Positions 5,617 to 22,773 of a DNA stretch of 27,436 nt are shown here, one piece after another. How positions within the stretch are numbered: the stretch's first letter is position 1; each line of letters starts with the position of its first letter. Origin of the DNA: Chloroflexota bacterium (GTDB lineage Bacteria; Chloroflexota; Limnocylindria; Limnocylindrales; CSP1-4); contig JAJYGO010000343.1 in assembly GCA_021785115.1 (NCBI GenBank), forward strand, positions 1 through 27,436, written 5' to 3'. The notes beneath the pieces are model-generated. The model did no database searches, was not told where the DNA came from, and saw nothing but the letters and a program-made list of their open reading frames with translations. The translations under genes were made by a program, and so were the position numbers.

Positions 5617-7040
5617 GCGCGATCGTCCCGGTTCTGCGGGCTGACGCGCGACCATGTCTGACGCGCGCCTTTGCAGCTCTGGCTGGCACCGCCGCCGTCG
5701 TCGCCGTCGCCACGTTCACCGACCAACTCGTCCTCGCTGCCATGCTTGCGACGGTGGGCGTGCTCGCCGCCGTTAGTGTCCGCTGGCCGTTGTTCCCGCT
5801 GTTCCTGTTTGCCGCCGTCATCCCGCTCGACGAGATCGCTCGCATCGGTCCGCTCGGTTCCCCCGGCCGGATCGTGGCCATTGCCTTCGTGCTTGTGTAC
5901 GCCGTCCCGCGCCTCCAGTCGATCCGTCTCGATCCCATGCCGCTCGCAACGTGGGGGTATCTTGGCTGGGCGGCGCTGAGCGCCGGGTGGGCGCTTGATC
6001 CCGGACGCACTGTCGCTGAGTTCGGCACGCTTCTCCAGATGGTCGCCCTGGCCGTCCTGGTCGCCGACGCGGTCATCGAGCACCCCGCAATCGTTCGGCC
6101 GCTGCTGTGGGTGTACAGCGCGGCCGCGGCAGCTACGGCCCTGTTCGGGGTGATTGCGAGCCTTGCGAGCGGCGGCAGCGTGATGGGACGCGCCAGCGCA
6201 TTCTCGGGGCAGGATCCTGCGCAGTTCGCCGCGATCCTGCTGCCCGCGTTCGCGGTGGCTCTCTACGAGATACTGCGGGGCCCGATGCGGCTTCCCGGGA
6301 CAGCTCTTGCCGTCGCCAGTGCGGCAGGCATCGTACTCTCGGGGGCACGCGGCGCGTGGGTGGCTGCCGTGGTCGTTGCCGCGGGTCTCATTCTCGCGAC
6401 ATTCCGCTTGCGGAAGGCGTCCACCGTCGCAGTGACGCTCGCCGGCATAGGCGCGGCCGCACTTGCGCTGCTCTCGGTTCCCGGCCTGCCAGCGTTCGTC
6501 GCAAGTCGGATCGATCTCGCGTTGGTGACGGGGGGCGCGGGCCGCACGAGCATCTGGACGGTGGGGGCGTCCATCTTCGGTGCCTCGCCACTCATTGGCG
6601 TCGGCTTCGACAACTTCCCCATCGCGTTCACATCAGAACGCATCCGGCTGGCCGGTGTGCCGGACCTGACCCTGGTGGGCTCGGGTCCGCACGACATCAT
6701 CGTGGGCACCGCGGCGGAACTCGGTCTCGTGGGTCTCGTTCTGCTGGCGCTGCTCATCGCGCCACTCTTCGCAAGGGCACCCGGGCGTCGGGAGCTGGTC
6801 GTCGTTCAGGCTGCGCTGGTGTCGCTGCTGGTCGATGCGCTCTTCCTCGACATCTTCAGCAACCGCAAGCAGGTCTGGTTGCTCGTCGGGATTGCGGCGG
6901 GTCTGTTGTGGAGCCATCGCCACGCGATCGCACCAGCGCCGAGGCGTTGGCCGGTCCCCGAGCAGCGCTTGCGCCCGGCGTGGCCCCAGCGGCCTGCGCT
7001 CTCCAACGGGGGAGCTTCGGGGGCGAGACGGGTGCCATGA
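5613..7040 (+). CDS. O-antigen ligase / Wzy-type polymerase family membrane protein
   Basis: This 475-residue integral membrane protein has roughly ten to twelve hydrophobic segments. It carries the Wzy_C / O-antigen ligase core: LSGARGAWVA near the middle, then a large external loop with GRTSIWTVGASIFGASPLIG and GVGFDNFP, followed by GPHDIIVGTAAELGLVGL. Arg, the G-x-G-x-x-x-F motif and the His in PHD are the usual conserved positions. In the Wzy route these proteins polymerise flipped repeat units; WaaL-like members ligate chains to a lipid acceptor. Next to a Wzx and a Wzz, polymerase is more likely. The start overlaps the GT2 stop, and the stop overlaps the next ATG (ATGA at 7037-7040). 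Confidence 0.88.
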   Translation: MSAIVPVLRADARPCLTRAFAALAGTAAVVAVATFTDQLVLAAMLATVGVLAAVSVRWPLFPLFLFAAVIPLDEIARIGPLGSPGRIVAIAFVLVYAVPRLQSIRLDPMPLATWGYLGWAALSAGWALDPGRTVAEFGTLLQMVALAVLVADAVIEHPAIVRPLLWVYSAAAAATALFGVIASLASGGSVMGRASAFSGQDPAQFAAILLPAFAVALYEILRGPMRLPGTALAVASAAGIVLSGARGAWVAAVVVAAGLILATFRLRKASTVAVTLAGIGAAALALLSVPGLPAFVASRIDLALVTGGAGRTSIWTVGASIFGASPLIGVGFDNFPIAFTSERIRLAGVPDLTLVGSGPHDIIVGTAAELGLVGLVLLALLIAPLFARAPGRRELVVVQAALVSLLVDALFLDIFSNRKQVWLLVGIAAGLLWSHRHAIAPAPRRWPVPEQRLRPAWPQRPALSNGGASGARRVP

Positions 7041-9251: not shown

Positions 9252-10655
9252 ATGAGCACGATCCCGAAGATCGGGCCGGGCAACTTCGGGGCGCCGGGCG
9301 GGGTCAGGGTCGCCATGGTCGTGTACGGCGACATCACGCACGACAGCCGTGTTCAGAAGGAGGCCAGTGCGCTGGCAGAAGCCGGCCATGTCGTCACGCT
9401 CTTCTGCCTCGCCGGGCGACCCGAGGCGATGCCGGGGCTGGACCGCCGCGTCTCCGTCGTCGCGCGTCGGCCTTCTGTGACCAGGATCCTGCCAAGGTCG
9501 CCTAGTCCGTTCTTTGCGGCCACGCCCGGTCACTTGGTGAGCCGTGCCGTGCAACGGGCCTCGTGGGTGTGGCAGTACATTCGCAACCTTCGGGCATGGG
9601 GCGCGTCGATCGCTGAGGAGGTCGGTCGTCCCGACGTCCTGCACCTCCACGACTTTGCCGCGCTGGTGGCCATGGACCGGCACCTGGCGCCTCGGCCCCT
9701 GCTTGTGTACGACGTGCACGATCTCTTCCTCGACACGGGAAGCGGCGCGAGGTTGCCCTGGCCCGCGCGCTGGGCGGTGCGTCAGTACGAGGGCCACCTT
9801 GTGCGTCGTGCGGCGGCCGTCGTCACGGTGAACGCGGGACTGGCTCAGGAGTTGCGGCGGCACTACCGTCCCCGTGCGGTCGTCGTGGTGCACAACTGCC
9901 CACCTCGATGGACTCCACCGCCTGTGCGGCCGACCCGTCTTCGTGATGCCGCCGGGATTCCAGACGGTGCGCCCATCGTCCTGTTTCATGGGGCCCTTGG
10001 CCCGGACCGGGGCCTGGATACCCTGTGCGACGCGATGTTGGAACCATCGCTGCGCGACGCCCACGTCGTCCTCATGGGCTATGGCGTGTTGCGCGAGCAC
10101 TTCGTCAACCTGGCCGGCGATGCCCGCTTCGGGGGGCGACTCCATGTGCTCGATCCGACCGTGCCCACGGATCTCCTGTGGTGGGTCGCATCCGCGGATG
10201 TTGGCGTCCTGGCTCGCCCTGCCACGAACTTGGATCTTGTTCTGTCGACACCGAACAAGCTGTTTGAGTGCCTTGCCGCCGGTACTCCGGCGGTAGTCAG
10301 CGATTTCCCGGCCGTGCGGCGAATCGTGATCGAGGATGAATTGGGACCGCTCGGCGTCACCTGTCGTCCGGACGATGCAGCCGATCTCGCGCGGGCAGTC
10401 CAATCGATCATCCGGTTGCCGCACCCGCAGATGGAGGATCTCCGGCGACGCTGCGCGACCGCCGCGCGGCTGCGCTGGAACTGGGAGAACGAAGTGATTC
10501 CCCTGCTCCGTTTGTACGCCGCCCTGGCCGCGCGCCATCGTGCGGCCGGTGGTTCCGTCGGACCGAGTGGCGCGTCGCGAAGCCCGGGAGACGAGTCAAG
10601 CCGCACTGGCTCCACCGGGGTGACGCGGACGGCCGCCGACGCGGCCCGGGACTGA
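9252..10655 (+). CDS. Glycosyltransferase family 4
   Basis: This 467-residue GT-B enzyme starts its acceptor lobe with VAMVVYGDITHDSRVQKEASA, a version of the D-x-R-V-x-x-E-A motif seen in many EPS GT4s. DVLHLHDFAAL and YDVHDLFLDTG follow. The donor lobe has IVLFHGALGPDRGLDTL, VVLMGYGVLREHF and STPNKLFECLAAGTPAVV with the conserved second Glu of EX7E; the first Glu is not kept. The last 50 residues are a Ser/Gly/Arg-rich tail. The ATG at 9252 has only a close AAGG upstream, so the start is less certain. One base separates its stop from the asparagine-synthase ATG, which indicates an operon. Confidence 0.88.
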   Translation: MSTIPKIGPGNFGAPGGVRVAMVVYGDITHDSRVQKEASALAEAGHVVTLFCLAGRPEAMPGLDRRVSVVARRPSVTRILPRSPSPFFAATPGHLVSRAVQRASWVWQYIRNLRAWGASIAEEVGRPDVLHLHDFAALVAMDRHLAPRPLLVYDVHDLFLDTGSGARLPWPARWAVRQYEGHLVRRAAAVVTVNAGLAQELRRHYRPRAVVVVHNCPPRWTPPPVRPTRLRDAAGIPDGAPIVLFHGALGPDRGLDTLCDAMLEPSLRDAHVVLMGYGVLREHFVNLAGDARFGGRLHVLDPTVPTDLLWWVASADVGVLARPATNLDLVLSTPNKLFECLAAGTPAVVSDFPAVRRIVIEDELGPLGVTCRPDDAADLARAVQSIIRLPHPQMEDLRRRCATAARLRWNWENEVIPLLRLYAALAARHRAAGGSVGPSGASRSPGDESSRTGSTGVTRTAADAARD

Positions 10656-12699: not shown

Positions 12700-13314
12700 C
12701 TACGTGGTCCGGGCCAAGCGCCCCTGTCGTCTTAGCGTTTCAGTCACGAAAGCAAGGAGCACAACGAGCGCAAGGCCGATACCCGCTCCGAGCGCTGCTC
12801 CCTGAACGACCCTATCCTCCCTGGTGCTCCCGGTCGCCACTGCCGGATCAACCACGGTCACTGCCATCGCGGGCGTAGCCACAGAGCTGCTTCCCGCACT
12901 GTACGTTGCGAGTTCATTGGCGATGGCGTTGGCGAGCGCCGCAGATTGAGACGGATCACGGTACGCCACGACAATGTCCACCAGGCCCGTGTTCGTGGTG
13001 GCGCGCGCCGAAACTGCCGACGCGAGGCTCTCGACTGAGACAGCCACACCCGCGGAGCTGATCGCGCGCGCGAGGATCGGACGAGTGGTCGCGAGTTCTG
13101 CATACGTCGGCGCCAGCGCCTGACCCACGAGCACGTCATTGAGGCTGACGTTCGATGCGCCGGGCGGCGGGCCCACCAGGAGGCTTGCTCGACTCGAATA
13201 GAGCGTCGGCGCCTGAGAGGCAAGCAGGTACGCGATCACCCCGCCCAAGATGGCACAGCCAAATGCCGCAGGAAGCCAGCCCCGACCCACCGAGGCGATA
13301 CGCGACAATGTCAC
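12700..13314 (-). CDS. Wzz-type chain-length / co-polymerase protein (no kinase domain)
   Basis: This 204-residue protein has the polysaccharide co-polymerase layout. An N-terminal membrane segment (about 12-35) is followed by YSSRASLLVGPPP, typical after TM1. A periplasmic or external alpha/beta domain runs to about residue 165 and includes VDIVVAYRDPSQSAALANAIANEL, the usual D-P-x-x-A-A-x-x-A-N motif. A second membrane segment lies at about 168-192. GTG at 13314 was chosen because GGGGGAG lies exactly 6 nt upstream; the frame is open to a GTG at 13347. There is no Walker motif or Tyr-rich tail, so a partner BY-kinase, if used, is encoded elsewhere. It converges on asnB with a 45-bp gap. Confidence 0.88.
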   Translation of the reverse strand: MTLSRIASVGRGWLPAAFGCAILGGVIAYLLASQAPTLYSSRASLLVGPPPGASNVSLNDVLVGQALAPTYAELATTRPILARAISSAGVAVSVESLASAVSARATTNTGLVDIVVAYRDPSQSAALANAIANELATYSAGSSSVATPAMAVTVVDPAVATGSTREDRVVQGAALGAGIGLALVVLLAFVTETLRRQGRLARTT

Positions 13315-13345
13315 GACTTGCTCCCCCGAACCGCCTAGGGCCGGC

Positions 13346-13373
13346 ACTGTACGCGTCTCTTGCCAGTAGACAA
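13346..13373 (-). promoter_or_regulatory. Candidate promoter of the Wzz-type gene (TTGTCT-16-TACAGT)
   Basis: On the minus strand TTGTCT (13373-13368) and TACAGT (13351-13346) are 16 bp apart. Predicted transcription start is near 13339, about 25 nt before the GTG at 13314. This is one of the two most complete sigma-70-like promoters in the window. Confidence 0.5.
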
Positions 13374-15402: not shown

Positions 15403-17091
15403 ATGCTGCGAACCGGCGACCTTGTCGAGGTTCTCTCCGGATCCGAGATCCGCGCGACGCTCGATGCCGATGGGTGCCTCGAGGGGCTTCCGTTCATGCC
15501 GGAGATGACCGCCGAGTGTGGTCGCCTCCACCGCGTCGCGACGCGAGCCGAACGAGTATGCGTCTTCCCGCCTCAGGTTCCCTTTCGCCGGCTCGAGCAC
15601 GCGGTCGTGCTCGACGGCCTGCGCTGTGACGGCTCGGCACACGGTGGGTGCGGACTCGGCTGCATGCTCCTGTGGAGGGAGGCGTGGCTCCGAAAGGCAC
15701 CGCCGACGGCCGCACGCCTGGACGGGTCGGCCGGTCCCCCGGGGCTGCCCGCAGTTGATCCAGACGCGACGTTCACATGCGCGCCGGTCCGGCGCACGGG
15801 TACCGACCGCTATGTGTGTCAGGCAACCGAGCTTCCGGTCGCCACGTACGAGGGGCAGTCGATCTGGGCGCCCTGGCAATACGTGCAACTCATGCGGTCG
15901 GGGGTCATGACGCCGCGCGTTCTGGCCAGCCTTATCACACGGATGGCACGGCGGCGGCTGAGCCGCGTGCTCGAGCGCCCTAACGCCAGATCGTCGACCG
16001 CTGCCGGAGACGTGGTGCCCCTGGCGCCGGGGGAACGCGTGAGGATCAGGAGCCGCCGCGAGATCCGTGCCATGCTCGACCGTCATGGCAGGCACCGGGG
16101 ACTGCCGTTCGGGGGCGACATGGTCGACGAGTGCGGGCGCACGTACACGGTTGCCCGTCGTCTGGAGACAATCGTCAAGGAGGACACAGGGGAGCTCCGC
16201 TCTCTACGCGACACGGTGATCCTAGATGGCGCAGCGTGCGACGGGTATCTGGGCTGCGCACGCAGAATGCCGTTCCTGTGGCGCGAGCAGTGGCTTGAAC
16301 GTGTTCCCGACACCGCGTCGTTGGCAGATGCCAGGCCTTCCTCCCCTCGCTCCGGATCCGGCATCCTGGCTGACGGTGCCCTGCCCGTGGCGAGTGCGCT
16401 GCGCGTGAAGCGGGGCATCGATGTGGTCGGCGCGATCGCAGGTCTGACCCTGCTGGGGCCGCTGATGGCGTGGACCGCGCTGGCGCTGCTGCTGACGCAA
16501 GGTCGCCCGATCCTCTTCCGGCACGTGCGCCCAGGCCTTCACGAGCAGCCCTTCACGCTGCTGAAGTTCCGCACGATGCGGTCGCCCAGGGCCGACGAGG
16601 TCTGGTACCTGACGGACGAGCAGCGCCTCACGCGTCTCGGGCGCGTCCTGAGGTCGACGAGCATCGACGAACTGCCGGAGCTCTGGAATGTCCTTCGAGG
16701 GGAGATGAGTCTGGTTGGGCCCAGGCCCCTCCTGATGGAATACCTGAGCACGTACACGTTTGCCGAGCGCCGTCGTCACAACATGCGGCCGGGGATCACC
16801 AGTTGGGCTGCCGTCAACGGACGGCATACGCTCAAGTACCGGGAGCGCCTCGCTCTGGACATCTGGTACGTGGATCACTGGAGTCTGTGGCTGGACCTGC
16901 AGATCGTCGTTCGGACTGCCTGGCAGGTGCTCCTCCGTCGAGACGTGGCGGCAACCCAGGACTCGCTGCATCTCGGTTTCCCTCTGCCCGAGTTGGCTGG
17001 CGGCACCCATGCCGATGGGATCCAACAGACTGCCGACCTATCACTTGAAGATGGCCTGTGCGAACTGGGGCACCGCGGGGCCGTGCGATGA
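15403..17091 (+). CDS. Cys-rich two-lobed module fused to a phosphoglycosyl transferase
   Basis: This 562-residue protein has two parts. Residues about 330-545 are a bacterial sugar transferase (WcaJ/RfbP/PglC class) that moves sugar-1-phosphate from a nucleotide sugar to undecaprenyl phosphate, the first step of repeat-unit synthesis. It shows VKRGIDVVGAIAGLTLLGP (re-entrant membrane helix), LLKFRTMRS, STSIDELPELWNVLRGEM with the catalytic Asp-Glu, and LVGPRPLL. Residues about 1-305 are two related lobes (about 1-100 and 208-302), each with a G-[DE]-x-V-x-[VI]-x-S/R-x-x-EIRA-x-LD opening, GLPF, ECGR, CDG and WRE-x-WL. Lobe 1 keeps CDGSAHGGCGLGC. Similar lobes form a conserved, uncharacterised stand-alone family near glycosyltransferases; that is from memory. 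The stop overlaps the next ATG (17088-17091). Confidence 0.85.
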   Translation: MLRTGDLVEVLSGSEIRATLDADGCLEGLPFMPEMTAECGRLHRVATRAERVCVFPPQVPFRRLEHAVVLDGLRCDGSAHGGCGLGCMLLWREAWLRKAPPTAARLDGSAGPPGLPAVDPDATFTCAPVRRTGTDRYVCQATELPVATYEGQSIWAPWQYVQLMRSGVMTPRVLASLITRMARRRLSRVLERPNARSSTAAGDVVPLAPGERVRIRSRREIRAMLDRHGRHRGLPFGGDMVDECGRTYTVARRLETIVKEDTGELRSLRDTVILDGAACDGYLGCARRMPFLWREQWLERVPDTASLADARPSSPRSGSGILADGALPVASALRVKRGIDVVGAIAGLTLLGPLMAWTALALLLTQGRPILFRHVRPGLHEQPFTLLKFRTMRSPRADEVWYLTDEQRLTRLGRVLRSTSIDELPELWNVLRGEMSLVGPRPLLMEYLSTYTFAERRRHNMRPGITSWAAVNGRHTLKYRERLALDIWYVDHWSLWLDLQIVVRTAWQVLLRRDVAATQDSLHLGFPLPELAGGTHADGIQQTADLSLEDGLCELGHRGAVR

Positions 17092-18146
17092 GCGGACGCG
17101 GGCATTGGGAGCACGGGTCGGAGTTCCACTGGCAACCCATTGATCTGGGCATGCCGGAAGCAGTGCCCTGGGAGGATGGGTTGCTCCTGTCGTGTGGTCG
17201 CGACGCCCTCCTCCTTCTCCTTGCCCACGGTTACCGGGAGCGCGGGTGGCGTCGGCTGTGGCTGCCCGACTACTTCAGCCAAGGTGTGGTTGCCGCTCTG
17301 ACGCGGTCCGAGGTCGAGTTGTTGGCGTTTCCCGACAACCCTCTCCTGCCAATGCCGGCCCCGCCGGCCGCGACACCGGGCGACGCTGTTCTCGTCATGA
17401 ACTACTTTGGCATTCGGGCCCCCGGCTCCCTGGAGCTGCGTGAGGGGGTCGACGTGATCGAGGATCATTCGCACGACCCGACATCCGAATGGGCGCGCTC
17501 GAGTTCGGCCGATTTCTGCATGGCGTCCTTCCGGAAGGCACTGCCGTTGCCGGACGGTGGTGCGCTGTGGTCGCCACGTCGCCATTCGTTGCCCTTGGCG
17601 CCGCCTGAGACAGCGCAACGTCGTCTCGCCTCGGCCGATCGAGTCGCCGCGATGCTCCTGAAGGCGATGTATCTCGACGGCCAGCCGATCGACCCGGCGA
17701 GCTACCGGCTGCTCGAACAGGAGTCGGAACAGGAATTCGGCGTAGGGGTGCCGTCGTCGATGACCCAGTTCGCGCGGACCGTGCTCTCGGCGTTCCCGTT
17801 CGAAGGCTGGAGGCGCGCCCGTATGGACAACTGGGAGGCGTTGCGCGCACGTCTGGCGGACGTCGAGTGGATCAGCCTCCTGGCCCCGACGGCTCCGAAC
17901 CAGGCGCCCTTCTCGGCGCTCCTCGTGTTCGACAGCGCGGAACGACGCGACCGCGTGCGGCGCGAACTCATCGGCGTCCGCGTGTACCCTGCGGTTCTCT
18001 GGTCGCTCGAGGAACCGGTGCTGACCGCCGGCCGCGACGTGCTCGAACTGAGCCGACGCGTGCTCTCGATCCCTTGCGATGGCCGGTACGGTCGCGAGGA
18101 CATGGAACGCGTCGGCTCCCTCATCGAGGCTGCAGGGTCCGCCTGA
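17088..18146 (+). CDS. Divergent DegT/DnrJ-fold PLP-dependent protein
   Basis: This 352-residue protein resembles the DegT/DnrJ/EryC1 sugar aminotransferase fold but is distant from the DegT at 19334. Visible landmarks are SCGRDALLLLL (35-45, the usual small-domain/cofactor-loop position), VLVMNYFG (101-108), VIEDHSHD (123-130; Asp126 is the expected partner of the PLP pyridine nitrogen) and ASFRKALPLPDGG (146-158; Lys150 fits the Schiff-base lysine). It is shorter than typical members (about 370-400). ATGA coupling to the phosphoglycosyl transferase suggests that it makes or modifies the initiating sugar or its donor. A true aminotransferase, a dehydratase-type member or an inactive relative are all possible. 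Confidence 0.65.
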   Translation: MSGRGHWEHGSEFHWQPIDLGMPEAVPWEDGLLLSCGRDALLLLLAHGYRERGWRRLWLPDYFSQGVVAALTRSEVELLAFPDNPLLPMPAPPAATPGDAVLVMNYFGIRAPGSLELREGVDVIEDHSHDPTSEWARSSSADFCMASFRKALPLPDGGALWSPRRHSLPLAPPETAQRRLASADRVAAMLLKAMYLDGQPIDPASYRLLEQESEQEFGVGVPSSMTQFARTVLSAFPFEGWRRARMDNWEALRARLADVEWISLLAPTAPNQAPFSALLVFDSAERRDRVRRELIGVRVYPAVLWSLEEPVLTAGRDVLELSRRVLSIPCDGRYGREDMERVGSLIEAAGSA

Positions 18147-18248: not shown

Positions 18249-19334
18249 TCAGATTGCTGCCGAGCGGTAACGAGGGAAGAACGTGTCGGGCGTGTCTCCT
18301 CCCGTTGCCCGCACGTGCTGGGCCACGAGCTCGGCGTACCGCGGCCGGTCCAGGACCCACCGACCCGTGGAGAACACGTGTCGGCGTCCCGAGAACTCGC
18401 GCTTGAAGAAGAAGAGGCTGTCCTCCCGTGCTCCGCGTCCGCCGCCCAGGTGCAGGACGCGCTCCCCTCGCGCGCGAGCCCACCGCCGGGCGTCGTCGAG
18501 GAGCAGCTTGGCCGGGGACAGGTGACGGAACGCGTCGTTCGACGCGAGCAGGTGCGCCTGAACAATCCCGGTCCACTCCAAGAACAGGCCGGCTGCCGCA
18601 ACGTCCGCGCCGCACCTCACGACCAGAAGGTGCACATGGCCCGGAAGCGCAGCACGCAGCTGCCAGAAATCCTGCTCCGCCATGAGGTAGTAGTCGGCTG
18701 CCGCGTTCCTCTCCATGGTCGCGCCATAGAGCCGCGCGAATGTTTCGATCTCCGCCCACTCCCTATCCTCGGTGGTCGTCAGGCCCGCGCGGCGGGCTGC
18801 GGCGATGTGCTGGCGAAGCGGCCGCGCGTAGGCACTCGACGCGGCATCGTCGTCGATGGTGCAATCGACCGAGACCGTCGGCCCCTCCGCCACCACGCCC
18901 AGGCTGTGGTCGTCGAGCGCTGAATCAACGGAGAACGTCGCGGCGAGCTCTGCGTTTCCGAGCAGGGGATTGAATCGCGTGAAGACGGCAACCGCGCGCT
19001 CCGAGCGCCACACGTCAACCGCGGCGGACCAGGCCTGTTCGAGGAAGGGGTCGGAGGCGTGGCAGTCCCAGGCCACCGGTCCGGGATAGCCGTACACAGA
19101 GGTGACCTCCGTGTCGTCGGCACCTGCAAACTCCGGCAGGTCGCCGATCTTTCGAAGCAGGTACGGCCACGCAAGGCCGCACGAACCGTCCTGAACCAGC
19201 AGCAGACGCGGGCTGCCTTCCCCACGCCCCTGCGCGAAGCGGTGGTATCCCGCCGAGTGGTAGACGTCACGTTCGGCGCCGCTCAGGGCCTCGTCCCATG
19301 CCGGTGCGTCCGAGCCGAGCACGTCCACGCGCAT
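18249..19334 (-). CDS. FemAB/GNAT-like acyltransferase (Acetyltransf_6 type)
   Basis: This 361-residue protein has the double-GNAT layout of FemAB-like proteins: an N-terminal half with VYHSAGYHRFAQG and VYGYPGPVAW, and a C-terminal half with RPLRQHIAAARRAGL, LYGATMERNAAADYY, LLVVRCGADVAAAGLFLEW, HLLASNDAFRHLSPAKLLLDDA and LHLGGGRGAREDSLFFFKREFS. The LGGG and the final FKREFS-x-RR are characteristic of this group. Members transfer amino-acyl or acyl groups. Its ATG shares one base with the stop of the DegT aminotransferase upstream (19334), so the two are co-translated. A reasonable inference is N-acylation of the amino sugar that the partner makes. It converges with 17088-18146; the 102-bp gap shows no clear terminator. 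Confidence 0.8.
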   Translation of the reverse strand: MRVDVLGSDAPAWDEALSGAERDVYHSAGYHRFAQGRGEGSPRLLLVQDGSCGLAWPYLLRKIGDLPEFAGADDTEVTSVYGYPGPVAWDCHASDPFLEQAWSAAVDVWRSERAVAVFTRFNPLLGNAELAATFSVDSALDDHSLGVVAEGPTVSVDCTIDDDAASSAYARPLRQHIAAARRAGLTTTEDREWAEIETFARLYGATMERNAAADYYLMAEQDFWQLRAALPGHVHLLVVRCGADVAAAGLFLEWTGIVQAHLLASNDAFRHLSPAKLLLDDARRWARARGERVLHLGGGRGAREDSLFFFKREFSGRRHVFSTGRWVLDRPRYAELVAQHVRATGGDTPDTFFPRYRSAAI

Positions 19335-20494
19335 CAGGATGCCCTCGTGGCCTGTTCCATCGGCCGCTCCACTTCCTCCGTCAGCGCCTGCGCGACCACC
19401 TGCACGTCGTCGTCGCTCAGTCGGCTCGAGAACGGCAGGGCGATGGTCGACGCCGCCACCCGCTCGGTCACTGGAAAGTCACCCGGAGCGAATCCGAAGC
19501 GCTCCCGATAGAAGGGCTGGAGGTGGATGGGCGCGAAGTAGGGGCGCGACGAGATCCCCAGCGCCGTGAGCCGCCTGATGACGAGGTCCCGATCGATGGC
19601 CGGGTCCAGCCGGACCACGTAGACGAACCAGTCGACCTGCTCGTCCGGGCCGATGTGGGGCAGCGTCACCCAGTCGTGCCCCCCCAGCGCACGCTCGTAG
19701 GCCGCAACCACCCGGGCGCGCTCCCGCTGCAGCTCCTGGCGGCGCTCGAGCTGGGCCACGCCGAGCGCGGCGGAGAGCTCATCGAGCCGGTAGTTGTACC
19801 CCAGTCGTACGTGGCGGAGCCACCCCCCGTCCTGATCACGACCCTGGTTGCGCAGGCTCCGCATCGTCTCTGCCAGCGCGTGGTCGTCGGTGACCACCAT
19901 GCCGCCCTCGCCGGTGGTGATCTGCTTGTTGGGGTAGAAGGCAAAGACGGCCGCGTCGCCGAACTTGCCGAGCGGGCGGCCGCCGACGCCCGAGCCCAGG
20001 CCCTCGCACGCATCCTCGATGATCGCCCAGCCGCGACGGCGCGCGATCGAGGCGATCGCATCGATCCGGCACGGCCTGCCGAAGACGTGGACGGGCAGCA
20101 CCGCCCGCGTCCGGTCCGACGCGGCCTGCTCCAGCAGCGCGGGGTCGATCCCGAGGCTGTCCTCCTCGATGTCCACGAAGCGCGGCACCGCCCGCTCGTA
20201 GAGGAGGCAGTTCGCGGAGGCCACGAAGCTGAACGGGGTGGTGATCACCTCGTCGCCCTCGCCGATGCCGAGTGCTCGCACGGCCAGGTGCAGCCCCGCC
20301 GTGCCGCTCGAGCACGCCACGCCCTCCGCGCGGCCCGCCAACGCCGCGATCCCTTCCTCGAAGCGGCGCGCGAAGTCCCCCAGGGCGAGGACATCGCTGG
20401 TGAGCACCTCGGTCACGAGCTCCAGCTCGCGACTGCCGATGTTGGGCCTGGCCAGCGGGATGTGTCGATCGGCGACGCGGGTCGTCGCGGACAT
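19334..20494 (-). CDS. DegT/DnrJ/EryC1/StrS sugar aminotransferase
   Basis: This 386-residue PLP enzyme converts a keto group of a nucleotide sugar into an amine, with Glu or Gln as donor. It begins IPLARPNIGSRELELV and has ACSSGTAGLHLA (60-71), EVITTPFSFVASAN (82-95), VLPVHVFGRP (132-141), IIEDACEGLGS (158-168, Asp161) and FAFYPNKQITTGEGG (185-199, Lys190 as Schiff base), all standard for the family. ATG at 20494 was chosen because GGAGGA lies 6 nt upstream; an upstream in-frame start at 20521 overlaps the predicted -10. It heads a two-gene operon with the FemAB/GNAT-like gene, and likely supplies an amino sugar for the polymer. Confidence 0.92.
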   Translation of the reverse strand: MSATTRVADRHIPLARPNIGSRELELVTEVLTSDVLALGDFARRFEEGIAALAGRAEGVACSSGTAGLHLAVRALGIGEGDEVITTPFSFVASANCLLYERAVPRFVDIEEDSLGIDPALLEQAASDRTRAVLPVHVFGRPCRIDAIASIARRRGWAIIEDACEGLGSGVGGRPLGKFGDAAVFAFYPNKQITTGEGGMVVTDDHALAETMRSLRNQGRDQDGGWLRHVRLGYNYRLDELSAALGVAQLERRQELQRERARVVAAYERALGGHDWVTLPHIGPDEQVDWFVYVVRLDPAIDRDLVIRRLTALGISSRPYFAPIHLQPFYRERFGFAPGDFPVTERVAASTIALPFSSRLSDDDVQVVAQALTEEVERPMEQATRAS

Positions 20495-20523
20495 CGGGCG
20501 TCCTCCGCGGATCACGACCATTC

Positions 20524-21493: not shown

Positions 21494-21588
21494 CGCGTCA
21501 CCTCCAGCGTGTCGCCGGGCGCCACGTCCGTGCGGCCGGCGCGGGGTGTGCCGGCGTGCGGCGGACGCGCCGCCGAACCGTGGCCGCC

Positions 21589-21594
21589 ATCGTA
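21589..21594 (-). promoter_or_regulatory. Candidate -10 box (TACGAT) for the MBL-fold gene
   Basis: Minus-strand TACGAT fits TANNNT and is identical to the box before the GGDEF gene. It implies a leader of about 90 nt before the ATG at 21493. Confidence 0.35.
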
Positions 21595-21717
21595 GCGGCT
21601 CATGGCGGATGGAGCCCGCGGGACACCGTGTGCGTGGCGGCGCCTGCGGCAGCCGTGCATGCCCCGGCGATGGAACCTGCCGGCAACCGCCCCATGCCCT
21701 CACCCGCAGCGCACCGG

Positions 21718-21723
21718 TACACT
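21718..21723 (+). promoter_or_regulatory. Candidate -10 box (TACACT) for a leaderless transcript of the moaX operon
   Basis: TACACT ends 7 nt before the GTG at 21731, the spacing expected when transcription starts on the first base of the start codon. The same hexamer precedes the vanZ-like gene. Confidence 0.45.
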
Positions 21724-21730
21724 GCCGGTC

Positions 21731-21931
21731 GTGGCAGGAGTGGCGGCCGACGAGAGCCTCGATCCCACGGGCGGGACCATGCCGACGGCCCCGGCGGTGG
21801 GTTCCGGCGCAGCCTGGAGGATCGTGGCAGTCCCGGCCGGGACGGGCCTGTCCGCCGCGGAGATGGGCGCCTTCCGGGTCGGGACGAGCCCGGCCCCGAG
21901 GCGCCGCCTCGACGGGGGGTTGCTGGCATGA
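21731..21931 (+). CDS. Putative 66-residue small protein, coupled to moaX
   Basis: The frame starts at a GTG placed for leaderless translation from TACACT at 21718-21723. It ends in a TGA that overlaps the moaX ATG as ATGA (21928-21931), the same coupling seen elsewhere in this window. The product is Ala/Gly/Pro-rich with a short hydrophobic AAWRIVAVPAG stretch and a basic SPAPRRRLDGG end. I recognise no family. The overlap and promoter spacing are the only evidence; it may be merely the leader cistron that delivers ribosomes to moaX, or not translated at all. Confidence 0.4.
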   Translation: MAGVAADESLDPTGGTMPTAPAVGSGAAWRIVAVPAGTGLSAAEMGAFRVGTSPAPRRRLDGGLLA

Positions 21932-22773
21932 TCGTCCGGGTGCGCCTCTTCGCGCGGCAGCGTGAGCTCGCCGGCGCTTCTCGCCTGGAGCTGGAGCTGC
22001 CAGACGGCACCTCGGTGGCCCAGGCCTGGACGGCGCTGGCGGCGACGTACCCGGCGCTCGGACCCGGGCGGCCCTACGTGCGCTTCGCGCGGAACGGCGC
22101 GTACGCGGACGAGACGGACGAACTGGCCGATGGCGACGAGCTGGCCTTCATCCCACCGGTGGCGGGTGGCGACGCGCCCACCTCGCGGGTCCGCTGGATC
22201 GCCATGACCGGCGATCCCATCGACGACGTGGCGCTGGGACGGCTGCGGGCGACGGTGGCCACCAGCCAGGACGGGGCGGTGGTCACGTTCGAGGGACGCA
22301 CGCGGGAAAGCCCGGGTACGCCCGCCCCGGGAGAGGAGGCGGAGGCCGCGCGCCATGCCGGCGCCGGGGTGCTGGCGCTCGAGTACGAGGCGTACGAGGA
22401 GATGGCGCTGGAGGTCCTGGGCGCGATCGCGGACGAGATCGAGGCGCGCTTCGACGTGCACCGGATCGCGATCCTTCACCGGACGGGGCGCGTCCCGCTG
22501 GAGGAGACGAGCGTGGCGGTCGTGGTGGCCGCGCCGCACCGGGGCGCGGCGTTCGAGGCCTGCCGCTACGCGATCGACGAGCTGAAGGGACGGGCCCCGA
22601 TCTGGAAGTCCGAGCAGTTCCTGGACGGCTCGGTCTGGATCGGGCAGCCTGCCCGCCTCGGCGCGGCCGCCGGACCCGCGGAGCCGGGGACGCCCCGGCG
22701 CGAAGCCGCAGAGCCGGGGATACCCCGGCGCGAAGCCGTGGACCCCGACCTGGACGGCGCCGGAGATCGCTGA
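21928..22773 (+). CDS. moaX: MoaD-MoaE fusion (MoaX-type molybdopterin synthase)
   Basis: This 281-residue protein joins both molybdopterin synthase subunits. Residues 1-81 are MoaD (beta-grasp; begins MIVRVRLFARQRELAG) and end at VAGG with the diglycine at 80-81 that MoaD needs as a free, thiocarboxylated C-terminus. Residues about 86-230 are MoaE, with GAVVTFEGRTR, LEYEAYEEMALEVL, VHRIAILHRTGRVPLEETSVAVVVAAPHR and LKGRAPIWKSEQ, whose lysines fit the active site. The enzyme adds two sulfurs to precursor Z in molybdenum-cofactor synthesis. Mycobacterial MoaX is a known fusion that must be cut after the diglycine. The tail (about 248-281) contains two AEPG[TI]PRREA decapeptides. ATGA overlap with the upstream small frame. 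Confidence 0.9.
   Translation: MIVRVRLFARQRELAGASRLELELPDGTSVAQAWTALAATYPALGPGRPYVRFARNGAYADETDELADGDELAFIPPVAGGDAPTSRVRWIAMTGDPIDDVALGRLRATVATSQDGAVVTFEGRTRESPGTPAPGEEAEAARHAGAGVLALEYEAYEEMALEVLGAIADEIEARFDVHRIAILHRTGRVPLEETSVAVVVAAPHRGAAFEACRYAIDELKGRAPIWKSEQFLDGSVWIGQPARLGAAAGPAEPGTPRREAAEPGIPRREAVDPDLDGAGDR
22681..22737 (+). repeat. 30-bp tandem repeat in the 3' end of moaX
   Basis: Units start at 22681 and 22711 (GAGCCGGGGAYRCCCCGGCG, then CGAAGCC) and differ at only a few bases. They encode the two decapeptides AEPGTPRREA / AEPGIPRREA. Each unit contains a CCGGGG..CCCCGG palindrome. Confidence 0.8.

Follow-up and report, generated by a model that had tools for sequence, protein, structure and literature searches.

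A cysteine-rich two-lobed module fused to a PglC-type phosphoglycosyl transferase in a Chloroflexota glycan cluster, and its candidate role as a docking hub

The small monotopic phosphoglycosyl transferases (PGTs) PglC of Campylobacter and EpsL of Bacillus subtilis use UDP-N,N'-diacetylbacillosamine (UDP-diNAcBac) as substrate, and the B. subtilis route to it, as described in PMC10653937, consists of a dehydratase, a pyridoxal phosphate (PLP)-dependent aminotransferase and an acetyltransferase. The large monotopic PGTs (WbaP, WcaJ and EpsZ) carry the same kind of core at their C-terminus, preceded by an N-terminal PF13727 domain and a four-helix bundle. PGTs with extra domains are known, and those in which a functional domain adjoins the monotopic core at either end have been termed Bi-PGTs (PMC10942596). 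In PglB and PglB2 of Neisseria, the PGT is fused to an enzyme that finishes or tailors its sugar, either an acetyltransferase or an ATP-grasp protein (PMC11130364). Here we describe an open reading frame (ORF) in a stretch of 27,436 nucleotides from a Chloroflexota bacterium (assembly GCA_021785115.1, contig JAJYGO010000343.1; the whole stretch is referred to below as the window) that joins this known kind of enzyme to what is, by the searches reported below, a new accessory domain. The ORF occupies positions 15403..17091 of the plus strand, starts with ATG and encodes 562 amino acids: a two-lobed Cys-rich module followed by a PglC-type monotopic PGT.

The C-terminal part of the protein matches the PGT family PF02397 over residues 336–510 (16408..16932, plus strand) with E 5.9e-61 and 205.5 bits against a cut-off of 27. 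Residues 10–191 of a C-terminal fragment align without gaps (E 1e-46) with a solved PglC chain, which carries the name N,N'-diacetylbacillosaminyl-1-phosphate transferase, and the alignment is better than that with WbaP. The Asp-Glu dyad D422-E423 (16666..16671, plus strand) has the same letters in the aligned PglC and the PRP motif is present as GPRP at 439, so that PF02397, the dyad and the PRP motif are common to the window PGT and to small monotopic PGTs including PglC and EpsL. The C-terminal core is shared with the large PGTs as well, whereas PF13727, the mark of that group, has no match in the window protein at E ≤ 1. Judged by these features the window PGT is PglC-type, with an extra 305-residue N-terminal module compared with PglC and EpsL. 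A predicted helix at residues 327–366, with block values of the predicted local distance difference test (pLDDT) of 76–86 from residue 331 onward, is a candidate re-entrant membrane helix in the AlphaFold2 (AF2) model. Like the Neisseria PglB and PglB2 proteins, the window PGT is fused to a second domain; theirs is tied to the first sugar, is a known enzyme and follows an N-terminal PGT, as far as PMC11130364 describes them, whereas in the window protein the module is unnamed and stands N-terminal. Set beside the Bi-PGTs of PMC10942596, the window protein has an extra conserved domain that is a candidate for such a functional domain.

A preliminary description of the window had proposed this union of a Cys-rich two-lobed module with a PGT, adding that it would fail if a frameshift had joined two separate genes or if the N-terminal part had no relatives outside the protein. 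The union is confirmed by the PF02397 match at 336–510 and the duplicated module at 1–305, and neither objection holds. The reading frame is uninterrupted over all 562 residues, five relatives (P0002, P0003, P0005, P0027 and P0089) start at the same position as the window fusion, and the GC content at the three codon positions is similar across the two halves (0.718/0.557/0.784 compared with 0.702/0.492/0.791). The join is repeated in 12 further protein clusters, 10 of which are among the matches listed for residues 1–325, with 45–83% identity over the module. Because the same join recurs in these 12 clusters and with two types of PGT, a sequencing or frameshift artefact is ruled out. A search with residues 1–325 scored 7997 proteins, of which 2697 are relatives at E ≤ 1e-3. 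The linker between the two parts (residues 306–335; 16318..16407, plus strand) is 12–31 residues long in the 13 PGT fusions, and its residues 306–325 have a pLDDT below 50.

The module consists of lobe 1 (residues 1–102; 15403..15708) and lobe 2 (residues 205–305; 16015..16317), both encoded on the plus strand and both predicted to form SH3-like barrels. The lobes are identical at 44 of 99 positions in a single BLASTP comparison (E 2e-22), and their profiles match with probability 100 and E 2e-40; a duplication beyond chance is thus indicated by both comparisons. The motifs listed in the preliminary description can all be located in the sequence of each lobe: GLPF at 28–31 and 233–236, ECGR at 38–41 and 243–246, CDG at 75–77 and 279–281, and WRExWL at 91–96 and 293–298. 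Conservation was assessed in 309 rows (229 listed proteins and 80 genomic loci, 305 of them distinct), which represent the best-scoring relatives and no sample of all 2697. The Cys/His cluster of lobe 1, C75-x4-H80-x2-C83-x3-C87 (15625..15663, plus strand), is kept almost without exception (C75 in 308/309 rows, H80 in 306/309, C83 and C87 in 309/309), and the metal site suspected earlier gains credibility as a matter of sequence conservation. Nine residues are invariant in 309/309 rows, namely F31, M35, G77, C83, C87, W95, C139, Q140 and W297; among these, C139 and Q140 (15817..15822, plus strand) lie in the segment between the lobes.

The cysteines of the two lobes do not vary independently of each other. 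In lobe 2, the pair C279-x5-C285 (16237..16257, plus strand) is lost entirely in 13 of 305 rows and C279 alone in 4. C53 of lobe 1 (15559..15561, plus strand) is missing from 27 of 305 distinct relatives, and its loss is confined to relatives in which C289 is present or C279 is lost (27/27 rows compared with 0/278). C289, the lobe 2 equivalent of C87, is missing in the window protein and was found in 10 of the 305, all of them without C53. On a tree this rule involves only four changes and four independent pairs, one of them on starred branches; the pattern, as read from the aligned rows, is strong with few independent events. The way in which C53 tracks C279, C285 and C289 suggests a site shared between the lobes. 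The preliminary description had noted that lobe 2 lost part of the Cys cluster and had suggested that the lobes may have diverged in role: the third Cys is indeed missing, whereas the occurrence of C289 only in relatives without C53 points to a site that lobe 2 probably shares with lobe 1 rather than to simple decay. An exploratory coupling analysis of the 309 rows (about 244 effective) placed position 141 near both lobe 1 (52, 54, 85, 90) and lobe 2 (289/291). All 17 modules without C53 and C279 (13 of them also without C285) retain C139, C75, H80, C83 and C87, and 15 of the 17 have an N-terminal extension of 93–139 residues (P0125, P0128, P0132, P0157, P0159, P0174, P0177, P0182, P0194, P0202, P0204, P0219, P0222, P0223 and P0224).

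The AF2 model of the module alone has a pLDDT of 87.8 and a predicted template modelling score (pTM) of 0.86, and its predicted fold is a pair of SH3-like barrels. SH3-like proteins are among its best fold matches, including the Mind bomb MZM-REP or Mib repeats, the nitrile hydratase beta subunit and KOW/L21e proteins, with the matched region mainly at residues 178–309 and lobe 1 barely covered. Residues 1–305 have no sequence match to the nitrile hydratase beta family in Pfam at E ≤ 1. The full-length model has a pTM of 0.60 which, together with the low pLDDT of the linker, means that it does not settle the role of the module. A membrane-binding amphipathic helix at residues 160–196 was considered and is unsupported, as the mean moment over the 309 rows is only 0.82 standard deviations above shuffled sequences.

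The family to which the module belongs is large, widely scattered and missing from the libraries searched. Residues 1–305 have no match in Pfam or NCBIfam at E ≤ 1, and residues 1–325 have none in PADLOC or PHROGs. Six strings of module motifs were not found in the open-licence PubMed Central literature, and searches of titles and abstracts there gave nothing similar. Among the 120 matches listed of the 2697, 11 carry PF02397, the window protein included, and 109 do not. Genome contigs yielded 352 stretches that encode relatives, of which the best 80 were kept as loci (L numbers), with genes taken as crude ORF picks. These 80 loci cover 12 named phyla, led by Actinomycetota (30/80), Acidobacteriota (19) and Planctomycetota (9), and two loci have no phylum assigned. 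In 10 of 10 locus genomes searched the module is present once per genome, compared with one to five PGT matches each, one of which is a sub-threshold fragment. Locus L001, like the window, is from a Chloroflexota genome; among 61 genomes, comprising that one and 60 relatives, the module is present only in L001's own, and the distribution is therefore patchy. The module was found in none of the phage records and in six records of a plasmid collection, one of them of chromosome size; Mesorhizobium and Bosea records (H2–H6) have stand-alone modules on large plasmids. Lobe 1 is also matched by 154 short proteins, of which 120 were listed. Two of 14 inspected single-lobe matches continue into the C139 motif and most have dissimilar tails; many of them are probably cut or frameshifted two-lobed proteins, although some may be genuine single-lobe proteins.

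Fusions were surveyed with a longer search frame and with scoring restricted to the module, which gave 439 matches at E ≤ 1e-3 among 7989 scored, 120 of them listed. A partner was recognised in 41 of these 120 long relatives and in none of the other 79: a PGT in 13, a glycosyltransferase of family 4 (GT4) in 18, a FemAB/GNAT-type protein (PF13480) in 6, a flavin adenine dinucleotide (FAD)-dependent oxidoreductase in 3, one of which was assigned only by its given name, and a polysaccharide deacetylase with DUF3473 in 1. Surface-glycan synthesis employs enzymes of the kinds represented by four of these five classes. The module forms the N-terminal part of the PGT and deacetylase fusions and the C-terminal part of those with GT4 and FAD enzymes, whereas in FemAB fusions it can stand at either end. 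The earlier view that the fusion marks the PGT as the partner of the module is thus right about the join and too narrow about the partner, as four other enzyme classes are joined to the module, at either end.

The fused modules are not degenerate. In 266 modules without a recognised partner, 43 positions are conserved in at least 95% of the proteins, and the fused classes retain 96–100% of these on average. A module whose only task was to reach its present fusion partner would be expected to lose its binding residues; since the conserved positions are kept, the module probably still does more than this. Such undegraded modules fit either an enzyme or a hub that has additional partners, and they speak against a mere anchor for the PGT. 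The PGT domains of the 13 fusions fall into type A (11) and type B (2), each with different unfused nearest relatives. In a quick tree of 40 chosen rows (the 13 PGT fusions and 27 others), a single clade of all 13 PGT-fused modules was rejected by the approximately unbiased test (p-AU 0.012), and a single clade of the 11 type A modules was rejected weakly (p-AU 0.046). In a 61-row tree the fusion label needs eight changes, only two of which are forced by starred branches, and some rows labelled as alone may be proteins cut by contig ends, which affects the counts of gain and loss. PGT and module were probably joined, or parted, more than once.

The fused gene lies in a glycan cluster of the window. 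A Wzx-type flippase (PF01943; 2939..4507, minus strand), a polymerase resembling Wzy and O-antigen ligases (PF04932; 5358..7040, plus), a GT4 glycosyltransferase (9252..10655, plus) and a Wzz-like chain-length protein with a weak match below cut-offs (12700..13347, minus) precede it; in all, the cluster has three GT4s, a family 2 glycosyltransferase (GT2) and an asparagine-synthase-type gene besides the flippase, polymerase and Wzz-like genes. The fused PGT is the only one found in the window and sits inside this cluster, and it is therefore likely to be the starter of the window polymer. The stop codon of the fused gene overlaps the start of the next one (ATGA, 17088–17091), whose product (17088..18146, plus) has no family match in Pfam (E ≤ 1), NCBIfam or PHROGs, shares 52% identity with the product encoded after the L001 fusion and by eye resembles a divergent DegT-type PLP enzyme. 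Farther downstream are a FemAB/GNAT-type acyltransferase (PF13480; 18249..19334, minus) and a DegT aminotransferase (19334..20521, minus), the latter with best models of the PseC and LegC families, below cut-offs, and 71–73% identity to its L001 counterpart. In L001 the genes for DegT, FemAB, module–PGT and the next product are consecutive on one strand, FemAB being directly upstream of the fusion, with 71, 61, 57 and 52% identity to the window; in the window the DegT and FemAB genes have the reversed orientation. The L001 genome has two more PGTs, one about 10 kb from the fused PGT. DegT and acyltransferase genes are also near EpsL in the EpsN/EpsM/EpsL set (PMC10653937), and the acyltransferase near the window PGT is FemAB/GNAT-type as opposed to the PglD/EpsM type found with PglC and EpsL. 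Of the six fusions of the module with FemAB, only P0153 (locus L004) has a FemAB half that matches the window FemAB at E ≤ 1e-5, with 37% identity between them. Thus, the module joins the PGT in one lineage and a relative of the adjoining FemAB in another.

Three further genes deserve mention. A right-handed beta-helix protein (PF13229, PF05048; 13463–14938, minus) is encoded beside the Wzz-like gene and is perhaps a polymer-active or surface protein. The reading frame at 21556–22773 (plus) looks by eye, from its motifs, like a MoaD-MoaE-type fusion. In L001 an acyl-carrier-protein-like gene (6767–7018; NCBIfam E 2e-15, below cut-off) is located upstream of the DegT, FemAB and module–PGT set, and its product might supply an acyl group to the FemAB-type enzyme.

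Module genes are often found in comparable surroundings. The 80 loci were scanned with 18 bait proteins taken from the window and from loci L031 and L051, the latter two being positive by construction. Glycan bait matches outside the module ORF occurred in 51 of 80 loci (49/78 without L031 and L051), with at least three matches in 35. Six of the same genomes supplied 20 control stretches, each 20 kb long, and none of these gave a match. The remaining 29 loci had no bait match; some are short, yet 13 of the 46 loci of at least 18 kb also had none. The suspicion that the module is a stand-alone uncharacterised family near glycosyltransferases is therefore borne out for most of the matches listed and, with respect to the neighbourhood, often rather than always. 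A PGT gene is present in 21 of 80 loci, the fused PGT of L001 included. Among 100 close same-strand neighbours (101 were chosen and L015:2694-9917 was excluded for its length), 12 have DUF4910, 10 are GT2s, 9 belong to a flippase family and 3 are PGTs; 2 have hemerythrin and ScdA N-terminal domains (PF01814, PF04405).

Several of these neighbours repeat the fusions as separate genes. In L002 (Anaeromyxobacter oryzae) a small PGT gene begins 199 bp after the module gene, its product sharing 69% identity with the PGT half of fusion P0064, and a DegT aminotransferase gene comes next. Large monotopic PGT genes end 12 and 4 bp upstream of separate module genes in L036 and L042. In L078 the module gene comes after genes for a PGT and a deacetylase; the latter lies just upstream of it and shares 42% identity with its counterpart in fusion P0173. 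For three fusion classes (PGT, FemAB and deacetylase), a separate gene thus adjoins a module gene directly. Locus L013 has a FemAB-type gene, a PglD-like gene and a PGT grouped about 8 kb from the module; its PGT is, at 51% identity, the nearest unfused relative of the window PGT in the set. The module–FemAB fusion of L004 has a GT4 gene just upstream; with only 25–32% identity between this GT4 and the GT4 halves of fusions, the pairing is weaker than the other neighbour pairs. On plasmid pMc1284 of Mesorhizobium ciceri the order is PIG-L, nucleotidyltransferase, methyltransferase, rfbC, DUF4910, short-chain dehydrogenase/reductase, DUF4214 protein, module (annotated as 'hypothetical protein'), lipopolysaccharide biosynthesis protein and glycosyltransferases. 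Operons with DUF4910 (CA_C2195) have been proposed to make a modified surface sugar (PMC4000134). Separate module genes are often within such operons, with the DUF4910 bait matched in 19 of 80 loci including its source L031, and the account in PMC4000134, in the parts available to us, names no such module. No DUF4910 match was found among the window genes scanned, which were not all of its ORFs.

These observations lead us to propose, tentatively and at somewhat less than even chances, that the module is a metal-stabilised docking hub which would couple amino-sugar tailoring by DegT and FemAB to the PGT. The two predicted barrels would face each other, with a first predicted site on lobe 1 (C75, H80, C83, C87 and perhaps C139) and a second common to both lobes (C53, C279 and C285). 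DegT would make a UDP-4-amino sugar, the FemAB-type enzyme would acylate it, and the PGT, on a flexible linker of about 24 residues, would move the sugar-1-phosphate to undecaprenyl phosphate. By holding the PGT and the enzymes that supply its acylated sugar together, the module would keep amino-sugar formation, acylation and transfer in one place, and an unfused module would bind the same partners in trans. With DegT and a FemAB/GNAT-type acyltransferase encoded close to the fused PGT, the polymer may begin with an acylated amino sugar. The docking proposal draws on the fusions to five enzyme classes, the separate-gene neighbours that repeat them, the gene sets of L001 and L002, and the contrast between 51/80 loci and 0/20 controls, with the Neisseria PglB and PglB2 proteins as a precedent for a PGT fused to a sugar-tailoring enzyme (PMC11130364).

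Only slightly less probable, in our view, is that the module is itself a pathway enzyme, with C139-Q140 and a metal site at the lobe interface forming a catalytic centre for modification of the sugar, whether lipid-linked or not, and that the fusions join successive steps. The predicted SH3-like fold is more usual for binding domains, the fusion partners belong to five unrelated classes and stand at either end, and no Pfam or NCBIfam family was matched, all of which argue against catalysis. The nine invariant residues, C139 and Q140 among them, the retention of conserved positions in the fused classes and the single copy in each of the ten genomes searched are what an enzyme might show. Sugar-nucleotide genes adjoin the module, the frequent neighbour DUF4910 having a proposed role in modified surface sugars (PMC4000134), and Neisseria PglB is a precedent for an enzyme–PGT fusion (PMC11130364).

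Regulation offers another reading, in which loss or oxidation of a Cys-bound metal would alter the fit of the lobes and turn off the PGT or another fused enzyme. The near-invariant Cys/His residues in two sets and the exploratory coupling between two Cys loops across the lobes are compatible with such a switch, PGT regulation by a partner protein is known from EpsW-EpsZ (PMC12802240), and the two hemerythrin/ScdA-type neighbours are possibly of interest for an Fe-S or redox role. We nevertheless consider it improbable, as a single signal would have to control five enzyme classes, 17 of 305 relatives lack C279 from the second set, and the flexible linker argues against tight allostery. A housekeeping or stress role unrelated to glycans, with the fusions and neighbourhoods produced by frequent rearrangement in glycan islands, appears very unlikely. 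The patchy distribution, the 29 loci without a bait gene and the photolyase, adenylylsulfate (APS) kinase, FolD-type and semialdehyde-dehydrogenase genes among some immediate neighbours are in its favour; the absence of bait genes from all control stretches, the predominance of surface-glycan enzymes among the fusion classes and the similar sets of genes at loci from Chloroflexota, Myxococcota and Planctomycetota are difficult to reconcile with it.

The module family has no entry in the Pfam version searched and merits one. Its serial fusions to a starter PGT, GT4s, FemAB acyltransferases, a deacetylase and FAD enzymes name candidate partners for it. We further speculate, with considerable doubt, that this unnamed family with a cross-lobe metal site could serve surface-glycan assembly as a plug-in hub across about a dozen bacterial phyla. 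The idea bears on an open question, namely what keeps the cytoplasmic reactions of surface-polysaccharide synthesis together and how they are controlled at a shared carrier lipid. If the idea is true, the plug-in hub would gather tailoring enzymes and the first or next transferase, in trans or in cis, and would channel the first sugar to the lipid carrier.
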